This document shows, piece after piece, positions 11,668 to 22,942 of a stretch of 64,000 bases of DNA; within the stretch, counting starts at the first letter, position 1, and every line of letters starts with the position of its first letter. The DNA comes from an uncultured Oscillospiraceae bacterium. GTDB taxonomy: Bacteria > Bacillota > Clostridia > Oscillospirales > Oscillospiraceae. The stretch spans positions 1 through 64,000 of the forward strand of contig CANQXK010000009.1 of assembly GCA_947627715.1 (NCBI GenBank), read 5' to 3'. A program made the translations under genes and the position numbers. The notes beneath the pieces were generated by a model. That model was not told where the DNA came from, searched no databases, and saw only the letters and a list, made by a program, of their open reading frames with translations.

Positions 11668-11695
11668 TTGACAAACGAAAAGTTTCTGTTATAAT
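11668..11695 (+). promoter_or_regulatory. tRNA-Leu promoter
   Basis: TTGACA (11668-11673) and TATAAT (11690-11695) with a 16-base spacer lie just before the tRNA gene. Confidence 0.8.
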
Positions 11696-11879: not shown

Positions 11880-12917
11880 TTATTTCCCCTCCGGGGCGGT
11901 GATGCGGATATAGTCCGGCAGGGGCAGGGGGTCGGGCTGGGTGTAGCGCAGCAGGAGGGCGTTCCCGTTCTCCTCCGCCTCCTCAAAGCCCGCCAGCTTA
12001 TAGGTGATATACATGATGCGGTTGTGCTCCGTCTCCAGAAACTCCGCCAACAGCGGCTTTTGGAGCCTGTGGGCGATGTGGGTGGCGCAGGCCAGAAGGA
12101 CCGAGCCGATGCCCCTTGACATGACGCGGCAGGAGACGATGAGGAGCTTTACGCGCAGGGCCTCTCCCCGCTCCAAAAGCAGAAGGCCCACCTTGCCGCT
12201 GTCGCCGTACTTGTCCCGGAGGCCGCAGATGAGGAAGATATAGCCGGGATCCCGGATCATGGACACCAGCTCGTCGTAGCCGTAGGTGTACCCCGTGGAG
12301 TTGAGCTGGTGGGTGCGGACGGTCAGCTCCTCCACCCGCTTGATGTCCTCCTCCGTCACCGGGGAGATGTCCAGCTCCATGCCCAGGGTGGCCAGAAAAT
12401 CGTCGGCGCTGCCCTCAAAGGCCCTCTCCGCCTGTTGGCGGTCAAGGTCCGCCCGGTACATCTCCCGCCGGTGGGCGGCGTCTGCGGTGATGAACGGGAC
12501 CTGGAACTCAGGGCGGGCGATAAGCTCCGAAAGCGCCGCCCCGTCGTAGGCGTTGATCCGCGGCAGGACGTGCCTCACCTCGTCCCGCTCAAACGCCGCG
12601 TCGTCCACGAAGGCCGCGGCCTCCGGCTTGATATTGAGGGCGCTGAGGATAGCCGCCACCCCGGCGGACTTGGGGTCCCAGGAGATCTGGGGACAGAGGA
12701 AGTATTCCTCCAGCCCCAGCTCCCGCAGCCGCGCAAGGGCCGGGCGTTCATCGTTTTTGCTGGCCACGGACTGGACGATCCCCCGCCGGTCCAGCTCCAG
12801 GACGGCCTCCCTGGCACCGGGGCGCAGGTCTTTCCCGCCGCCCTCGGCCAGGACGCCCTCCCACAGGGTGTTGTCCAGGTCCCAGACGACAAGCTTTATC
12901 CGCACACTGTCCGCCAT
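11880..12917 (-). CDS. FkbH-type HAD-IIIC protein (putative glyceryl-carrier-protein loading enzyme)
   Basis: The N-terminal HAD phosphatase domain shows VVWDLDNTLWEG (nucleophile Asp13), SVASKND (50-56) and FVDDAAFER (103-111). The C-terminal FkbH region shows RTHQLNSTG (201-209), RDKYGDSGKVG (234-244) and VSCRVMSRGIG (261-271), with the conserved Cys263. In polyketide pathways, FkbH proteins take D-1,3-bisphosphoglycerate, remove phosphate and leave a glyceryl thioester on an acyl carrier protein. Length, 345 residues, fits the family. It starts 1 base after the carrier-protein stop, so the two are coupled and are probably enzyme and substrate. No polyketide synthase is near; the neighbours are an MBOAT and an SGNH protein. 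The family call is strong, but the glyceryl substrate here is inferred. Confidence 0.9.
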   Translation of the reverse strand: MADSVRIKLVVWDLDNTLWEGVLAEGGGKDLRPGAREAVLELDRRGIVQSVASKNDERPALARLRELGLEEYFLCPQISWDPKSAGVAAILSALNIKPEAAAFVDDAAFERDEVRHVLPRINAYDGAALSELIARPEFQVPFITADAAHRREMYRADLDRQQAERAFEGSADDFLATLGMELDISPVTEEDIKRVEELTVRTHQLNSTGYTYGYDELVSMIRDPGYIFLICGLRDKYGDSGKVGLLLLERGEALRVKLLIVSCRVMSRGIGSVLLACATHIAHRLQKPLLAEFLETEHNRIMYITYKLAGFEEAEENGNALLLRYTQPDPLPLPDYIRITAPEGK

Positions 12918-12918
12918 A

Positions 12919-13161
12919 TCAGCCGTTCCCTCCCAGGTGCGACTCCACCAGGGCCGCGATGGCGTTGATGGAGTGGAAATTCTCGGTGGAGATCTCCCGC
13001 CGCCCCAGCTTCACGCCGAACTCCTTCTCCACGAACATCACGATCTGCAGGGCGAAGAGGGAGTTGATATACCGGCTCTTGAGAAGCTCCGTGTCGTAGG
13101 TGAGGCCCTCCGCCTTCTTCTTGTCCACGAAAAACTGATAGATCCGCTCTTTTGTGTCCAT
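12919..13161 (-). CDS. Acyl carrier protein, dedicated
   Basis: This is an 80-residue four-helix carrier protein. The phosphopantetheine site is Ser34 in RYINSLFALQ, where the usual Asp before Ser is Asn. Helix 2 (FALQIVMFVEKEFGVKL) and the end (NAIAALVESHL) match the fold. RBS GGAGG precedes ATG 13161. It is placed between the SGNH/NodB gene and the FkbH gene, as DltC is placed among dlt genes, and an Sfp-type transferase able to activate it is divergent nearby. It is unlikely to be the fatty-acid AcpP, which normally has DSL and lies among fab genes. I infer that it carries the small acyl group made by FkbH. Confidence 0.9.
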   Translation of the reverse strand: MDTKERIYQFFVDKKKAEGLTYDTELLKSRYINSLFALQIVMFVEKEFGVKLGRREISTENFHSINAIAALVESHLGGNG

Positions 13162-13184
13162 GTCTGTTCCTCCGTAAGAATCCT

Positions 13185-15035
13185 TTATTGAAGGGCCGAT
13201 AAAAGGCCCTCCAGCCGCTCCAAAAGCGCCGCCCCGTCAAGGCCGGGGTCCACGCTGACGCGCTTCAGGGCATATAGCGTCTGGGGGATGCCCCTGACCA
13301 CCACGTTGACGCCGTAGTCCGTGGTGACCGTGGCCCTGACGCCCAGCCCTTGCAGAACCACCTCGGACAGCCTGTCGTACAGCCCGTTGGGGTAGGTAAA
13401 AACGTCGCTCTCCACGGGCAGGGCGGCCGTGATCTGCTCCGAGGAGCGTTCAAAGTCCGCCGTCAGCGCGGCGGCATAATCGCTTTCGCTCTCGCCGGCC
13501 AGGCGCAAAACACCCCGCCGGCAGTCCTCCCCGTCCCGCTCCGGGACCTGGTGCATATCGTAGGAGTGGCTCTTGATCTCCAGCACGCCCTTCTCCACCC
13601 AGGGGGCGGCGTCCTCCAAGGTGAAATGAGGCGTCATGGGAACGCCCGTCTCCTTATAGGTGTCCTTGCCCACCGAGACCCCGATGACGGAGATGGCGGC
13701 GCTCATGCCGTACGTTTCAAGGAGCGGGGCGGCGATGTCCAGATTGTTCTGATACCCGTCGTCAATGGTGATCAGCACCGGCTTTTCCGGCAGCGTCCCG
13801 CCGCTGTACACATAGTCGAAAAGGTCGTCATAGGTGATGGCGGTGAACCCCGCGTCCCGCAGGGCGGCCAGCTGGGACGAGAACTCCTCCTGCGTCACCG
13901 CGTCGCTGCCGTCCCGCGCGGTCGTAAAGGAGTGGTACATCAAAATGGGCAGGGGGACCGTGTTGTCCCGGGGCGGCTCCTCCAGGGCGGCGTAGGTCCG
14001 GGCCATCCGGGCCTCCACGTTCTCCGGCGTCGTCAGGTTCCCGAAGTCCTCCGGCATCCAGACCGCCGGATCCTTGAAGATATACGCCAGGGCCATATCC
14101 CCCACGCAGTTGCGGAAGTGGTCCACGTCGTAGAAGTAGCGGATGTCCCCGGTGACGCAGTTTGCGCCCCAGAAGTCGTAAAAGGGCGTTATCTCCGCCA
14201 CGCCCCGCCAAAAGTCCTCCATCTTCTCCCGGTCGTACCGGGCAAGGTCGCCGGTGTAGAGAGGCACGCCCACCACCGTGAGTTTAACGCCGTTGTCCCG
14301 GCAGATCTCCACGATCTGGGCGATGGCGTCCAGCGCGCCCTCCAGATGGGGCATGGAGGACGGGGCCTGCTCATAGTAGTTGTCCTCAAACGCCAGGTAC
14401 TCCGCCAGCTCCCCGATGCGGGTGCTGTCCCGCACCTCCTTGTTGTACGCCCCGTTCTCCGCCTTGTACACCGCGTCGGCGGTGACCAGGACCCCACGGG
14501 AGGCGTAGGCCCGGAGCTTTTCCAGCCCGTAGCCGGGGTTGGCGAAGAGGTATTTTGCGTAGAAGGCGGGGGCGAAGGAGCCGTCCACCTTGCAGTGCAT
14601 ATTCCCCTTGATGGGGTCGTCCTCGGTGTCAAAAAGCTCCGCGTCCTGGGGGTCCACCGCCAGGACGATGTTTTTTACCCGGTAATTGTCCACGATATAC
14701 CGGGTCAGGGCCAGCTCGTCCGTCAGGTCCCCGCCGTACCAGGTCATGTTGTAGAAGCTGGCGTCCATATAGGCGTTCAGCTTCTCCGGCGACAGGGAGG
14801 AGCACTTGGAGCTTCCGATGACGTAGGAGTCGTATTTCTCAAAGTTTCTGTCCAGATACGCGATCTTCGCCACGCGTGGGTTCATGGTCATGTCATAGGC
14901 GTACCAGTCCATGAGCCTGTCCCCAAAGACGCCGAAGGGGTCCGTGAGCACATTGAAAACCGCCGCGCAGCAGGCGAAAAGGACGACCGCCGTTAGGAAG
15001 ACGGCGAGCCACTTCTTTATGGACAAGCTTCTCAC
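13185..15035 (-). CDS. SGNH-hydrolase-like (DltD-like) domain fused to NodB polysaccharide deacetylase
   Basis: A membrane anchor at about residues 9-29 leads into an extracellular SGNH/DHHW-type domain (about 50-330). It has the nucleophile block VIGSSKCSS (72-80, Ser75 or Ser76) and an end block YDVDHFRN (302-309) that supplies Asp and His. From about 360 a NodB polysaccharide deacetylase follows, with LITIDDGYQN (421-430), KSHSYDMH (488-495) and FTYPNG (546-551), so the metal and catalytic residues are present. The SGNH part is placed as DltD/AlgX-like partners are beside MBOAT proteins. The deacetylase part would remove N- or O-acetyl groups from a glycan. At 616 residues the gene is complete. 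GTG 15035 is 1 base past the MBOAT stop; the exact start is uncertain. Confidence 0.88.
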   Translation of the reverse strand: MRSLSIKKWLAVFLTAVVLFACCAAVFNVLTDPFGVFGDRLMDWYAYDMTMNPRVAKIAYLDRNFEKYDSYVIGSSKCSSLSPEKLNAYMDASFYNMTWYGGDLTDELALTRYIVDNYRVKNIVLAVDPQDAELFDTEDDPIKGNMHCKVDGSFAPAFYAKYLFANPGYGLEKLRAYASRGVLVTADAVYKAENGAYNKEVRDSTRIGELAEYLAFEDNYYEQAPSSMPHLEGALDAIAQIVEICRDNGVKLTVVGVPLYTGDLARYDREKMEDFWRGVAEITPFYDFWGANCVTGDIRYFYDVDHFRNCVGDMALAYIFKDPAVWMPEDFGNLTTPENVEARMARTYAALEEPPRDNTVPLPILMYHSFTTARDGSDAVTQEEFSSQLAALRDAGFTAITYDDLFDYVYSGGTLPEKPVLITIDDGYQNNLDIAAPLLETYGMSAAISVIGVSVGKDTYKETGVPMTPHFTLEDAAPWVEKGVLEIKSHSYDMHQVPERDGEDCRRGVLRLAGESESDYAAALTADFERSSEQITAALPVESDVFTYPNGLYDRLSEVVLQGLGVRATVTTDYGVNVVVRGIPQTLYALKRVSVDPGLDGAALLERLEGLLSALQ

Positions 15036-15036
15036 C

Positions 15037-16461
15037 TCAGAAATTGAAATAGAGGAAGGTGGAGACCCTTCTCATGCACAGGAGCGACAGCGCCAGAAGC
15101 GCCGCGCTGAACACGGCCTCCCGCCAGCCGTACCGCTCCCGCTCCGACAGGGCGTTGGAGTTGGGGAAGGCAAAGCATATGACGGCGCCCGCCGCCATGG
15201 TCAGGGTCACCGAAAGATTCTCCTTCACAAACGTAAGCGCCGAGCGCAGGAACGTGCGCGCGTGCAGGAGTTCTCTCACGTCAAAGAGCTTGCGGTACAC
15301 CATGGCGGCCTGGGTGAGGCCCGTGCAGTCGAAAAGCACCCGCACCAGCGCCCCCACAAGGAAGGTCAGCGCCACCGCCAGCCACGCCGGGAGGGGCTTT
15401 CGCTCCTTCAGGGCGCGGATATTCGCCAGCGTCACCAGCGCGCCGTTGACAAGGCCCCAGAGGATGTAGTGCCACGCCGCGCCGTGCCAGACGCCGGACA
15501 CAAGGAAGGTGGCCATGGTGGCGAATATAAGCTTCCCCACCCCGTCCCCGAAGCCGAAGAGGTTCTGAAACACGGTCTCGTTGAAAAAGCGGGAGATGGT
15601 GATGTTCCACCTGCGCCAGAAGTCCCCGAAATCCCGCGCCTTGTAGGGGGAGTCGAAGTTGATGGGCAGCTCCACGCCGAAAAAGCACCCTAAGCCCCGC
15701 GCCATGTCGATGTAGCCGGAGAAGTCGAAGTAGTAGGCGAAGGTGTAGGCCAGCACCGCCATCCAGGAGTGGAAAAGCCCCGCCCCGGCCGCCCCGCCGC
15801 CGGTGTAGTAGGCGGAGGCGAAGCTGATGAGCGTGTCGGCCAGCAGGATCTTTTTGGCGCACCCCATGGAGAAGAGCATCACGCCCCGGGGGACGAGGGC
15901 GGCGTCGTAATCAAGGAGCGTCCGCCCCTCGATATAGGGCATCACCTCGTCGTGGCGCACCACAGGCCCCACGATGAGCTGGGGGAAGAAGGTGACGAAC
16001 ACGGCGTAATCCAAAAGCCCCGGCCTCCCCCGCTCCCCCCGGTAGAAGCTCACCGTGAAGGCCAGGATCTGGAAGGTGAAAAAGGAGATGCCGATGGGGA
16101 GGATCAGCTTCAGCGCGCCGATGTGGGTGCCGAAAAGGAGATTTACGTTGGCAATGGTGAAGTTGAGATATTTAAACCAAAAGAGAAGCCCCAGGTTCCA
16201 CGCCACGGCTAAGGTGAGCCACAGCCGCCGGGCGGCCTTCTTTCGGCTTTTGTCCATGAGCAGGATGAGCAGGTAATTGAGAAGCAGCGTCAAAACGAAG
16301 CCCGCCAGAAAGTCCGGCTGCCCCAGCCCGTAAAAGACCAGGGAGGCCGCCGTGAGCCACAGCTTCACAAGCCGCTCCCGGCCTGTTCTCCTCAGCAGGT
16401 GAAAGCCCAGGAGCGTCACCGGGAGGAATAGAAATATGAAGGAATAGGATGAAAAGATCAT
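15037..16461 (-). CDS. MBOAT family membrane O-acyltransferase (AlgI/DltB-like)
   Basis: This polytopic membrane enzyme has 474 residues. Family marks are FWRRWNITISRFF (281-293), SGVWHGAAWHYILWG (322-336) with the catalytic His, and PINFDSPYKARDFGDFW before it. MBOAT proteins of this branch take an acyl group from a cytoplasmic carrier and pass it through the membrane to a polymer. The chain ends TFLYFNF: an aromatic tail with Tyr471, like the C-terminal Tyr motif of DltX and of many AlgI-type proteins that is thought to hold the acyl group in transit. Start ATG 16461 has GGGAGAG before it; a longer in-frame reading to 16488 lacks a site. It is first gene of the four-gene unit. Confidence 0.93.
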   Translation of the reverse strand: MIFSSYSFIFLFLPVTLLGFHLLRRTGRERLVKLWLTAASLVFYGLGQPDFLAGFVLTLLLNYLLILLMDKSRKKAARRLWLTLAVAWNLGLLFWFKYLNFTIANVNLLFGTHIGALKLILPIGISFFTFQILAFTVSFYRGERGRPGLLDYAVFVTFFPQLIVGPVVRHDEVMPYIEGRTLLDYDAALVPRGVMLFSMGCAKKILLADTLISFASAYYTGGGAAGAGLFHSWMAVLAYTFAYYFDFSGYIDMARGLGCFFGVELPINFDSPYKARDFGDFWRRWNITISRFFNETVFQNLFGFGDGVGKLIFATMATFLVSGVWHGAAWHYILWGLVNGALVTLANIRALKERKPLPAWLAVALTFLVGALVRVLFDCTGLTQAAMVYRKLFDVRELLHARTFLRSALTFVKENLSVTLTMAAGAVICFAFPNSNALSERERYGWREAVFSAALLALSLLCMRRVSTFLYFNF

Positions 16462-16482
16462 GGTCTCTCCCGGCGGGCGCGA

Positions 16483-16511
16483 TTGCAAAGCCCGTCTCTA
16501 TGTGATATACT
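16483..16511 (+). promoter_or_regulatory. Promoter of the phosphopantetheinyl transferase gene
   Basis: TTGCAA (16483-16488) and TATACT (16506-16511) with a 17-base spacer lie 41 bases before the GTG start. No clear promoter is visible for the opposite-facing MBOAT gene in the same 90-base gap. Confidence 0.65.
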
Positions 16512-16551
16512 TTCAGAAAAACACGAAAAAACGAGGAAAGGGGGCGGGACT

Positions 16552-17103
16552 GTGCTGGTCCTGTGGCGGCAGCTTGAAGAGGCCTGTCCCGGCGGGCAGG
16601 CGCTTCACGAGGCGGGCCGCGCCCTTTTACGGCGCGGGCTTGAGATCGCGGGCTTTGCCGGAGCGGAAAGGCGCGTCGTCCTCTCCCCCGCCGGCAAGCC
16701 CTATCTCCCCGGCGGGCCGGCGTTCTCCATCTCCCACGCCGGGAACGCGGCGGTGTGCGCCGTTGATGCCGGCCCCGTGGGGATCGACATCGAGCCTGTG
16801 ACGGACATCCCGAAGGAGCTTCTTGACTCCCTCGCCCCCGCCGAACGGGCCTATGTGCTGGCGCGGCAGGGGGAGGAGGCGCTGCGGTTTTTCCGCCTCT
16901 GGACCATGAAGGAGAGTATCGTCAAGGCCCGTGGGGAGGGCCTGGGCGGGCTGTTGGAGCTTCGGAGCCTTGTGACGGACTCGCATACGCTTGTCCGTCA
17001 GGTGGACGGGCTGACCGTCCGGCCCCTCTCCCTGCCCATCCCCGGCGTTTGCGCCGCGTTGTGTTCGGAGACGGACTCGCCCCCGGACATCATCGGATCC
17101 TGA
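16552..17103 (+). CDS. 4'-phosphopantetheinyl transferase, Sfp type
   Basis: This enzyme moves the phosphopantetheine arm of CoA onto the Ser of carrier proteins. At 183 residues it is a compact Sfp-type form. Motifs are AFSISHAGN (57-65), VGIDIEPV (76-83, the Mg-binding Asp and Glu) and FRLWTMKESIVKARGEGL (114-131). Start GTG 16552 is chosen because AGGAAAGGGGG lies just upstream and the longer reading has no site. It is divergent from the MBOAT gene by 90 bases, so it most likely activates the carrier protein at 12919-13161. Its TGA (17101-17103) directly abuts the stop of the convergent gene, leaving no room for a terminator. Confidence 0.93.
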   Translation: MLVLWRQLEEACPGGQALHEAGRALLRRGLEIAGFAGAERRVVLSPAGKPYLPGGPAFSISHAGNAAVCAVDAGPVGIDIEPVTDIPKELLDSLAPAERAYVLARQGEEALRFFRLWTMKESIVKARGEGLGGLLELRSLVTDSHTLVRQVDGLTVRPLSLPIPGVCAALCSETDSPPDIIGS

Positions 17104-18975: not shown

Positions 18976-20040
18976 TCAGTCGCGGGTCTTTTTAAAGACC
19001 CACTTGCGCTCCACAACGTAATTGACAACGAAAAGCACGCCGTCCACCACGATCTTGATGAGCACGGTCGGAACCGGCAGGCGGCTCAGGGCCGCCACGG
19101 TTCCCCCGCTCACCAGCATCACCGCCAGGAAGAGGCACAGATACCGAAGCGACTGCGCCCCGGTGTCCCCGCGGCTTCTGAAGGTGACGTGCTTGTTGAG
19201 GAAGAAATTCAGCGCCCCGGACAGGAGCCTTGCGGCCACCGTGGCGGCGAACACCCACCGCTCCCCCTCCGGGAAAAGGGCGCTCAAAAGCCAGAAGGCC
19301 CCCAGGTCCATAAGCGACGAGGCCACGGCCACCAGCGCAAAGGTCAGGGGCCTGCGGTAGACGAGGTAGGAGTCCCGCACCACGCGGAAATGGGACGCTT
19401 TGTTGTCGTTTAAGTAGATGGTCTCGATGGGTTCCATGACCAGGGGGACCTTGGCCTCCGCCGCGTCCAGGAGGAAGTTCATCTCGTACTCGTACCGATC
19501 CCCCTCGCACTGGGCGGCCATTTTGAAAAGGGCCGCCGGGATGCCGCGAAGCCCCGTCTGGGTGTCGCCGCATCGGATGCCCGTCATCAGCTTGAATACA
19601 AAGGAGGTGATCCTGTTCCCGGCCCTGGACTTCCAGGGGACCGTCTCCCCGTCGAAGTCCCGCACCCCCAAGATGAGGCTTTCCGGGTTTTCGTTCGTCA
19701 GCTCCGCCACCCGCAGAACATCCTTCGGGGCGTGCTGTCCGTCGGCGTCGGCGGTGACCACCCCGGCGCAGCCGGGGACGTTCTCCCCGATCCAGGCGAT
19801 GCCCGTTTTCAGCGCCGCGCCCTTGCCCCGGTTTTGGGGGTGGCGGCAGACGTGGACGCCCATGGCCTCCACGCGGTCAAAGACCTCCCGGCACGCATCA
19901 TCGCTGCCGTCGTCCACCACCACGACGCGGCCCGCCCCGCTCTCCAAAAGCCCGGAGACGGTCCTGACCAGCAGCTCGTCCGGCTGATAGGCAGGTATCA
20001 GCACCGCGACCTGTTTGACGGTGTTTTCCAAAAACCACAC
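18976..20040 (-). CDS. Family 2 glycosyltransferase with C-terminal GtrA membrane domain
   Basis: Residues about 8-215 are a GT2 (DPM-like) catalytic domain: VAVLIPAYQPDE, VVVVDDGSDD, GKGAALKTGI and TADADGQH with the DxD-type acids. Residues about 230-354 form a GtrA-like domain of four membrane helices (for example GALNFFLNKHVTF near the middle and VNYVVERKWVF at the end). The GT2 half would put a sugar on a polyprenyl phosphate and the GtrA half would help flip it outward. The start is open: GTG 20040, or TTG 20031 which has GGGAGG at a better distance. It has a consensus promoter with a hairpin leader and is followed without a gap by the GT-C-like gene. Confidence 0.9.
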   Translation of the reverse strand: MWFLENTVKQVAVLIPAYQPDELLVRTVSGLLESGAGRVVVVDDGSDDACREVFDRVEAMGVHVCRHPQNRGKGAALKTGIAWIGENVPGCAGVVTADADGQHAPKDVLRVAELTNENPESLILGVRDFDGETVPWKSRAGNRITSFVFKLMTGIRCGDTQTGLRGIPAALFKMAAQCEGDRYEYEMNFLLDAAEAKVPLVMEPIETIYLNDNKASHFRVVRDSYLVYRRPLTFALVAVASSLMDLGAFWLLSALFPEGERWVFAATVAARLLSGALNFFLNKHVTFRSRGDTGAQSLRYLCLFLAVMLVSGGTVAALSRLPVPTVLIKIVVDGVLFVVNYVVERKWVFKKTRD

Positions 20041-21943: not shown

Positions 21944-22942
21944 TCACTTTGTATCATGTGATTTTTCCTTCTCCAATTTTTCTTTAATAAAATCCGGGAT
22001 CTCTCCAATCTGAGGTTCTATGTCGCAATCGAACAAATTGAGCAGCAGGTCATTAAATCCTTTATTCGCCTGATTCTCGTCAGACCAATCTAACGCATAT
22101 CTTGATCTGACATAAATCGGCAAACTCTGATCTATATTCTCACTTCTAAGTATGGCAATATATTTGTTTTGTTCAGGCCTTGACAGCATATCTCCCTGGA
22201 TTATCATTGTTTCCCATCCAACGCCGCCTTTTCTGTTGTCGGCCTTTTCGGCGTAATATTGATCGCAAATAAGCAACACCTTATCTGCCATTAACAATTC
22301 ATTTGTCATCCACTGCGGCAAATCAAACCCCGGTTTGAGATGGAATATGTCGATTCGGGCGTTGACTCCACTTCTACGCAATTTGCACGCGAAATCTCTC
22401 ACCCACTCCCTGTTTTTTGGGTCAGTCCCGGTATAGCTTATAAATACTCTCGGATTTGTGATACTGTTACGCTCCGCCGCGGTTTTGCTGGATAATTCGG
22501 AGTATATTTCCTCCGAGAACGCATAAACACATAACAAAATTTGAGTGTCCTCTTCAAACACTTTTTTCATTACTTCAAAAGATTTTTTTGCAGACAGGCC
22601 GCCCGCGCCGGTTCCGAGTAATGGTATATTAACCTTTTGGAGAGAGTCGTTTTGGCAGCGAAGTTTGATTGTACGCAGGATATTTTCTATGACCTCTTCC
22701 GTTGTTATACCGCCATACGCATCAACAGAAGCGGCGTAACCCACCAATGAAGCATTGGGGTAGGTCCCTGTGTTTTGAACAAAACAGACTTCTCCCGTAG
22801 GGATCGCCTTGCGATAGTATGGCAATCCATTCCCCGTAAGTTCTCTCAGTATGGTCCACGATACGCTGCCGGAGTTACTACACGGAATTATAATCAAATC
22901 GCATTTTGAATTAAAGATACTGCCCTTTATCAGCTCCAACAT
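21944..22942 (-). CDS. Macro domain fused to SEFIR/TIR-like domain (putative NAD-linked immune protein)
   Basis: Residues 1-145 form a macro domain, a fold that binds ADP-ribose: KGSIFNSKCDLIIIPC at the start and PLLGTGAGGLS (107-117) as the phosphate-binding loop. Residues 164-305 form a SEFIR/TIR-like domain: PRVFISYTGTD, FHLKPGFDLPQWM, KVLLICDQYYAEKADNR and GGVGWETMI, where Glu244 is the likely catalytic acid if it is an NADase. Macro and TIR parts are joined or paired in NAD-based anti-phage systems such as Thoeris. The gene is clearly more AT-rich than its neighbours, stands alone and lies next to tRNA genes, all signs of transfer. GAGAGGG precedes ATG 22942. Defence is inferred; no partner gene is seen. 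Confidence 0.82.
   Translation of the reverse strand: MLELIKGSIFNSKCDLIIIPCSNSGSVSWTILRELTGNGLPYYRKAIPTGEVCFVQNTGTYPNASLVGYAASVDAYGGITTEEVIENILRTIKLRCQNDSLQKVNIPLLGTGAGGLSAKKSFEVMKKVFEEDTQILLCVYAFSEEIYSELSSKTAAERNSITNPRVFISYTGTDPKNREWVRDFACKLRRSGVNARIDIFHLKPGFDLPQWMTNELLMADKVLLICDQYYAEKADNRKGGVGWETMIIQGDMLSRPEQNKYIAILRSENIDQSLPIYVRSRYALDWSDENQANKGFNDLLLNLFDCDIEPQIGEIPDFIKEKLEKEKSHDTK

Follow-up and report, generated by a model that had tools for sequence, protein, structure and literature searches.

A tight operon in the window (by which we mean the whole stretch of 64,000 nucleotides analysed) probably encodes a carrier-protein-dependent MBOAT–SGNH pathway of envelope acylation, in which an FkbH protein loads a glyceryl group that is put on an extracellular glycan; the acyl group, the acceptor and the linkage are those that we infer from the genes. 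On the minus strand, the operon runs 5' to 3' from the MBOAT through an SGNH-like/CE4 fusion and an acyl carrier protein (ACP) to FkbH, with intergenic gaps of 1, 23 and 1 bases. This tight same-strand unit, with an Sfp-type phosphopantetheinyl transferase (PPTase) diverging from it, had been reported in a preliminary description of this DNA and is borne out by the open reading frames and their gaps. That description proposed that an outer polymer is esterified with glyceryl or a related hydroxyacyl group, which we consider plausible, and left out a pair of genes just upstream, encoding a GT2–GtrA fusion and a multi-TM protein. The features of the locus are the following:

11880..12917, minus strand: FkbH of 345 aa with a HAD domain (about residues 4–141) and a GNAT domain (about 179–329), by TIGR01686
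12919..13161, minus strand: stand-alone acyl carrier protein of 80 aa with Ser34 in an INSL motif, by weak carrier-protein matches
13185..15035, minus strand: membrane-anchored fusion of 616 aa, SGNH-like (residues 1–345) and CE4 deacetylase (about 360–600), by PF01522 and motifs
15037..16461, minus strand: MBOAT acyltransferase of 474 aa from the ATG at 16461 (the ORF opens at 16488), by PF03062
16552..17103, plus strand (divergent): Sfp-type 4'-phosphopantetheinyl transferase from the GTG at 16552 (the ORF opens at 16483), by PF01648
17104..18975, minus strand: multi-TM protein, candidate GT-C glycosyltransferase, with a 37% identical homologue alongside the cassette in another genus
18976..20040, minus strand: fusion of a GT2 glycosyltransferase and a GtrA flippase domain, predicted polyprenyl-phosphate sugar synthase, by PF00535 and PF04138
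20278..20307, minus strand: consensus sigma-70-like promoter (12/12, extended -10) upstream of GT2–GtrA, from a pattern scan that is not evidence of function

The start codons of MBOAT and PPTase were set by homologues and ribosome-binding sites and are separated by about 90 bp. The PPTase matches PF01648 at 54 bits (cut-off 25) and is predicted to activate the ACP. For GT2–GtrA, the nearest NCBIfam model is PpgS (polyprenyl-phospho-GalNAc synthase), at 77 bits and under its cut-off. Family searches gave no match for the multi-TM protein, which is associated with the cassette and has a putative role in it. Downstream of the cassette, rpoB and rpoC (named by eye from their translations) lie on the same strand. 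Three perfect TTGACA/TATAAT promoter-like sites with an extended -10 are found around the locus and rpoB (20307–20278, minus; 11668–11695, plus; 11495–11466, minus), and the region holds seven promoter-like sites, compared to a mean of 1.5 after shuffling. At 21944–22942 on the minus strand, the window also encodes a protein of 332 aa whose N-terminus is weakly macro-like and which contains a TIR/SEFIR domain. Its PADLOC bSEFIR match (1.8e-56) makes it a candidate anti-phage defence protein, and the stretch that holds it has a lower G+C content of about 49%.

FkbH proteins produce glyceryl-ACP (PMC7489565) and can take the place of the A domains of NRPSs (PMC8949500). The protein encoded here belongs to this family with 235 bits for TIGR01686 (cut-off 147), and both the DxDxT motif of the HAD domain and the transfer Cys are present. 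In its AF2 model (pLDDT 90), a HAD domain at residues 4–141 (MDP-1, Z 19.7) is followed by a GNAT domain at 179–329 (RimI, Z 16.7). D13, D15, D105, D106 and C263 are invariant across all FkbH groups compared, with a 42-sequence alignment in agreement, and the catalytic residues are the same as those of polyketide-type FkbHs. The enzyme is predicted to charge the ACP with glyceryl derived from 1,3-bisphosphoglycerate. Carrier-protein matches of the ACP are weak and do not score it as DltC; Ser34 is invariant, and a dedicated carrier protein within the operon is a feature of Dlt. By bit score, the ACP is nearer to the carriers of polyketide-type FkbHs (50–62 bits) than to those of the adenylase cassettes discussed below (31–40 bits). 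Together with the FkbH trees, these scores group FkbH and ACP with polyketide-type glyceryl-ACP pairs, and by this descent and the invariant residues, glyceryl is well supported as the predicted acyl group. The known FkbH glyceryl-ACP modules, which serve polyketide (methoxymalonate, tetronate) and NRPS pathways, likewise combine FkbH with a stand-alone ACP of the same lineage and the same catalytic residues. Unlike them, the cassette comes without PKS, NRPS, dehydrogenase or methyltransferase and is coupled to a membrane acyl-export module. In particular, none of the dehydrogenases nor the methyltransferase that convert glyceryl to methoxymalonyl occurs in the cassette (compare locus L056).

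By the published account (PMC12148441), MBOAT–SGNH pathways except Dlt use an acyl-CoA donor and no carrier protein. In PatA, the acyl group is first placed on the Tyr of the protein's own C-terminal hexapeptide, FXYXXF, and then handed to an SGNH protein, while in Dlt the same Tyr shuttle is run through DltX (PMC12148441). The MBOAT of the window matches PF03062 at 102 bits (cut-off 27). Its nearest NCBIfam model is DltB (TIGR04091), but at 140 bits against a cut-off of 375 it falls outside the DltB family. H335 (ORF numbering) and a C-terminal FLYFNF are invariant among homologues. The latter is an FXYXXF acyl-shuttle motif, and the protein has the conserved His and FXYXXF by which PatAB-type MBOATs are recognised. 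A separate DltX microprotein with FXYXXF was not found; it is the MBOAT itself that ends in this motif. Because the MBOAT bears its own acyl-shuttle tail, the membrane half is PatA-like and not DltB/DltX-like. The preliminary description, which had called the locus Dlt-like, overlooked this tail. Nor is the cassette a plain PatAB-type system, because a carrier protein is present: in every cassette-bearing genome, ACP and loader lie within the operon. In having an MBOAT that ends in FXYXXF and is paired with an SGNH-like protein, PatA/PatB and alginate-type O-acetylation (PMC12148441) resemble the cassette, whereas the donor predicted here from the genes is a carrier protein in place of acyl-CoA. 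Dlt (DltA-DltB-DltC-DltX-DltD, teichoic acid D-alanylation) shares the small holo-carrier protein, MBOAT export, SGNH-like membrane-anchored delivery and the Tyr shuttle motif. It differs in that the cassette has FkbH for DltA, a shuttle on the MBOAT without DltX, a predicted glyceryl group, and an SGNH half that shows no family-level relationship to DltD and is joined to CE4 in one protein.

In the fusion protein, no family library recognises the SGNH half, and its comparison with a single DltD gave no profile match. It does carry the motifs G74-x-S76 and D303-x-x-H306, of which S76, D303 and H306 are invariant in 16 homologues, and by profile comparison it matches MBOAT-adjacent SGNH-like proteins of other FkbH operons (hhalign E 1.4e-9). 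We call this half SGNH-like on the strength of these motifs and this match; the AF2 model of the fusion, built on a five-sequence alignment, has a pLDDT of 49. The CE4 half (residues about 360–600) matches PF01522 at 51 bits, with PgaB/IcaB as best match. Its D425, D426, H490 and H495, which include the Asp and the His-His metal site, are invariant in the same 16 homologues. In the 'SGNH-type anchor protein' of the preliminary description, the C-terminal CE4 deacetylase (PF01522) had been missed. The poly-GlcNAc N-deacetylases PgaB/IcaB share the CE4 domain and its metal and catalytic residues, but the CE4 domain of the window is fused to an SGNH-like domain, and no poly-GlcNAc synthase gene was seen adjoining. 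In all full-length homologues (16 of 16), SGNH and CE4 form one polypeptide with both active sites intact, whatever the loader; this set includes L241, which was placed with the adenylase group by its neighbours and whose contig ends inside the MBOAT, before any loader is seen. At a further locus, L166 (6962–8800), a fusion of SGNH and CE4 is encoded with no MBOAT, ACP or loader within the 12.5 kb read.

In the mechanism that we propose, the PPTase would turn the ACP into its holo form, and FkbH, judged by its family and residues, would dephosphorylate 1,3-bisphosphoglycerate and pass glyceryl via Cys263 to the ACP thiol. By analogy with PatA and Dlt, the MBOAT would use H335 to transfer glyceryl from cytoplasmic glyceryl-ACP to the Tyr of its own FLYFNF tail outside. 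The SGNH domain may then accept the group on S76 and pass it to an extracellular glycan, the same glycan that the CE4 domain would de-N-acetylate, and the GT2–GtrA/GT-C-like pair probably supplies the amino sugar. The expected product is by default a glycerate ester, or perhaps an amide if the amine freed by CE4 is the site of attachment. Given the CE4 domain, an amino-sugar glycan is the likely acceptor, and ester and amide are both possible linkages. In other Gram-positives, pairs of GT2–GtrA and GT-C proteins glycosylate wall polymers (PMC8035078), so that a HexNAc-bearing acceptor fits. The host encodes four sulfatase-family proteins; since two of these weakly resemble LTA synthase, an LTA-like acceptor is possible.

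Two variants of this chemistry have to be weighed against a glycerate ester. The same machine might carry another cargo, with FkbH activating a different phosphorylated three-carbon acid or with glyceryl-ACP being modified by an enzyme encoded elsewhere. Polyketide pathways often elaborate FkbH products further (PMC7489565), and the carried group is not readable from sequence. However, no cassette genome has a dehydrogenase or an O-methyltransferase in the cassette, and the catalytic residues are identical to those of polyketide-type FkbHs; we regard this variant as quite unlikely. Alternatively, acetyl may be exchanged for glyceryl: CE4 would strip the N-acetyl group and the SGNH half would glycerylate the amine thus exposed, so that the product would be an N-glyceryl amide in place of an ester. 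This would suit both the constant fusion of two intact active sites and the resemblance of GT2–GtrA to polyprenyl-P-HexNAc synthases. Nevertheless, O-esters are what known MBOAT–SGNH systems make (PMC12148441), and CE4 might just render the polymer cationic beside the ester, so that we hold the amide to be unlikely, though worth considering.

The four-gene core was found in seven genomes, which belong to at least four genera: the window, L036 (of the window's genus), L037 (another genus of the same family), L040 and L041 (another family), L055 and L054, where it is truncated by the contig end. Across families the proteins are about 50% identical, yet the gene order and all active sites are retained, and FkbH is at the same place in every cassette-bearing genome. 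The arrangement is not due to chance, as other genera have the four genes in the same order. The PPTase, GT2–GtrA and multi-TM genes lie beside the core in L036 and L037, where the PPTase is divergent as in the window. They do likewise in L052, a public contig that is nearly identical (uncultured Lachnospiraceae bacterium, Lapin-017 bin 49), and in L053, which is the L036 contig as publicly deposited. In L040, L041 and L055, the glycosyltransferase pair is not adjacent to the cassette.

The host assembly has a completeness of 99.6%. Its best match to DltA reaches 118 bits compared to a cut-off of 560 and belongs to a FadD-like gene; no protein matches the DltD model TIGR04092. A ketosynthase (PF00109) was not found in the host genome either, FabF-type included, whereas 14 out of 14 control genomes were positive. 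The genome encodes one FkbH and four MBOATs. It also has two Sfp-like PPTases, the second of which is weaker and located elsewhere; this rules out that the PPTase of the cassette is the sole one of the genome. As the host lacks DltA, DltD and ketosynthase, both the Dlt and the polyketide readings fail. A genuine D-alanylation locus with FkbH as an unrelated neighbour could be argued from DltB being the nearest NCBIfam model of the MBOAT. We give it next to no chance, considering the score below the DltB cut-off, the two Dlt proteins missing from the host, the shuttle motif on the MBOAT in place of DltX and the constant position of FkbH. It is also very improbable that the locus is a remnant of polyketide or nonribosomal peptide synthesis, supplying methoxymalonyl- or glyceryl-ACP beside unrelated envelope genes. 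FkbH and ACP do descend from such a pair, but the host has no ketosynthase and, as its only DltA-type adenylase match, the FadD-like ligase; neither a KS nor an A motif lies close to the cassette in L036, L037, L040 and L041, and gene order and all active sites have been retained in proteins that share about 50% identity between families.

A search with the SGNH–CE4 fusion found full-length homologues without FkbH. In L164, L165 and L236–L239, the operon comprises an adenylase, a GNAT, an ACP, an MBOAT and SGNH–CE4; L240 is of the same type, but with no visible GNAT. Two of these adenylases, from L165 and L236, were scanned; both pass the amino-acid adenylation model TIGR01733, and their DltA scores of 277 and 267 bits, respectively, are under the cut-off of 560. 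Because related SGNH–CE4 proteins thus adjoin adenylase, GNAT, ACP and MBOAT, the FkbH of the window, with its HAD and GNAT domains, fills the position of adenylase plus GNAT. Together with a host that lacks DltA and ketosynthase, this gives comparative support to the earlier proposal of a Dlt-like locus with FkbH in the place of the adenylating enzyme. Both cassettes share a full-length SGNH–CE4 homologue, an MBOAT with a shuttle-like tail and an ACP, but in the adenylase type the loader is an amino-acid adenylating enzyme with a separate GNAT, and the MBOAT is of another branch. A one-gene swap of FkbH for the adenylase on one MBOAT is ruled out by the MBOAT tree, in which the window-type and adenylase-type proteins are on different branches. 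As the ACP is, moreover, nearer to polyketide-type carriers, the whole donor module (loader, ACP, MBOAT) appears to have been exchanged around a common acceptor enzyme. The adenylase cassettes of L164, L165 and L236–L240 are apparently another undescribed Dlt-like system, for an (amino)acyl group. We found no description of this cassette in the open-access literature searched, nor a prior one of an FkbH–MBOAT envelope cassette; the preliminary description, too, knew of no described system with this gene set.

FkbH scores over the cut-off in 57 of 295 genomes of the order and in 14 of 398 genomes of the phylum. At 36 of the 64 FkbH loci examined in the order, an MBOAT lies on the same strand within 6 kb, and an ACP is nearby in all 36. 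With about 0.9 MBOATs per Mb, about 0.7% per locus or about 0.4 of the 64 would be expected by chance, although these loci come from related genomes and are not independent draws. Every intact FkbH-linked MBOAT ends in FXYXXF (34 of 36, the other two being broken ORFs). No MBOAT lies close to FkbH at the remaining 28 loci, some of which sit at the end of a contig. Most of the MBOAT-linked FkbHs in the order sample are of a long type with an FkbH_N domain. In the FkbH trees, this long type forms a separate branch with full support, while the window type falls within the stand-alone polyketide-type FkbHs. Since two separate FkbH lineages occur with an MBOAT, the association arose at least twice or passed between lineages. 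L188 (5412–10124), for example, has a full operon of a two-domain FkbH, ACP, MBOAT and SGNH-like protein. Such two-domain cassettes resemble that of the window in holding FkbH, ACP, an FXYXXF MBOAT and an SGNH-like protein in one operon, but differ by the N-terminal FkbH_N domain, the separate FkbH lineage and an SGNH protein that is not fused to CE4. About 30 loci similar to L188 make the two-domain FkbH–ACP–MBOAT arrangement, often with an SGNH-like protein, common in the order.

The FkbHs linked to SGNH–CE4 form two sets in a larger quick tree and are joined in the careful tree, with L063 inside. L063 (1–1011) is the FkbH of a Clostridiaceae MAG; as it falls in the window's FkbH clade and its upstream genes lie beyond the contig end, it is likely a further member of the cassette. 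A third FkbH context is seen in L043 (5875–9630) and L042 (757–8055), where a shorter FkbH-like protein (400–417 aa) shares its operon with radical SAM-like, signal-peptidase-like and ABC transporter-like proteins (names given by eye from sequence).

We consider the chances evenly balanced for a wider generalisation, namely that envelope glycans of gut Clostridia are glycerylated by a widespread undescribed class of carrier-dependent MBOAT–SGNH pathways, which take the acyl group straight from the 1,3-bisphosphoglycerate of glycolysis and need no ATP-dependent adenylation, with FkbH recruited to MBOATs at least twice and SGNH–CE4 served by different donor modules. If true, there would be, besides Dlt, a second carrier-protein route of MBOAT–SGNH acylation that is common and draws its donor directly from glycolysis, and FkbH would move from natural-product biosynthesis into cell-envelope biology. 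The cassettes would also allow comparison of systems in which one acceptor enzyme is combined with different donor loaders. For the bacteria themselves, glycerate would be a standard surface decoration of abundant gut species, and their surface chemistry would be tied to their metabolic state.
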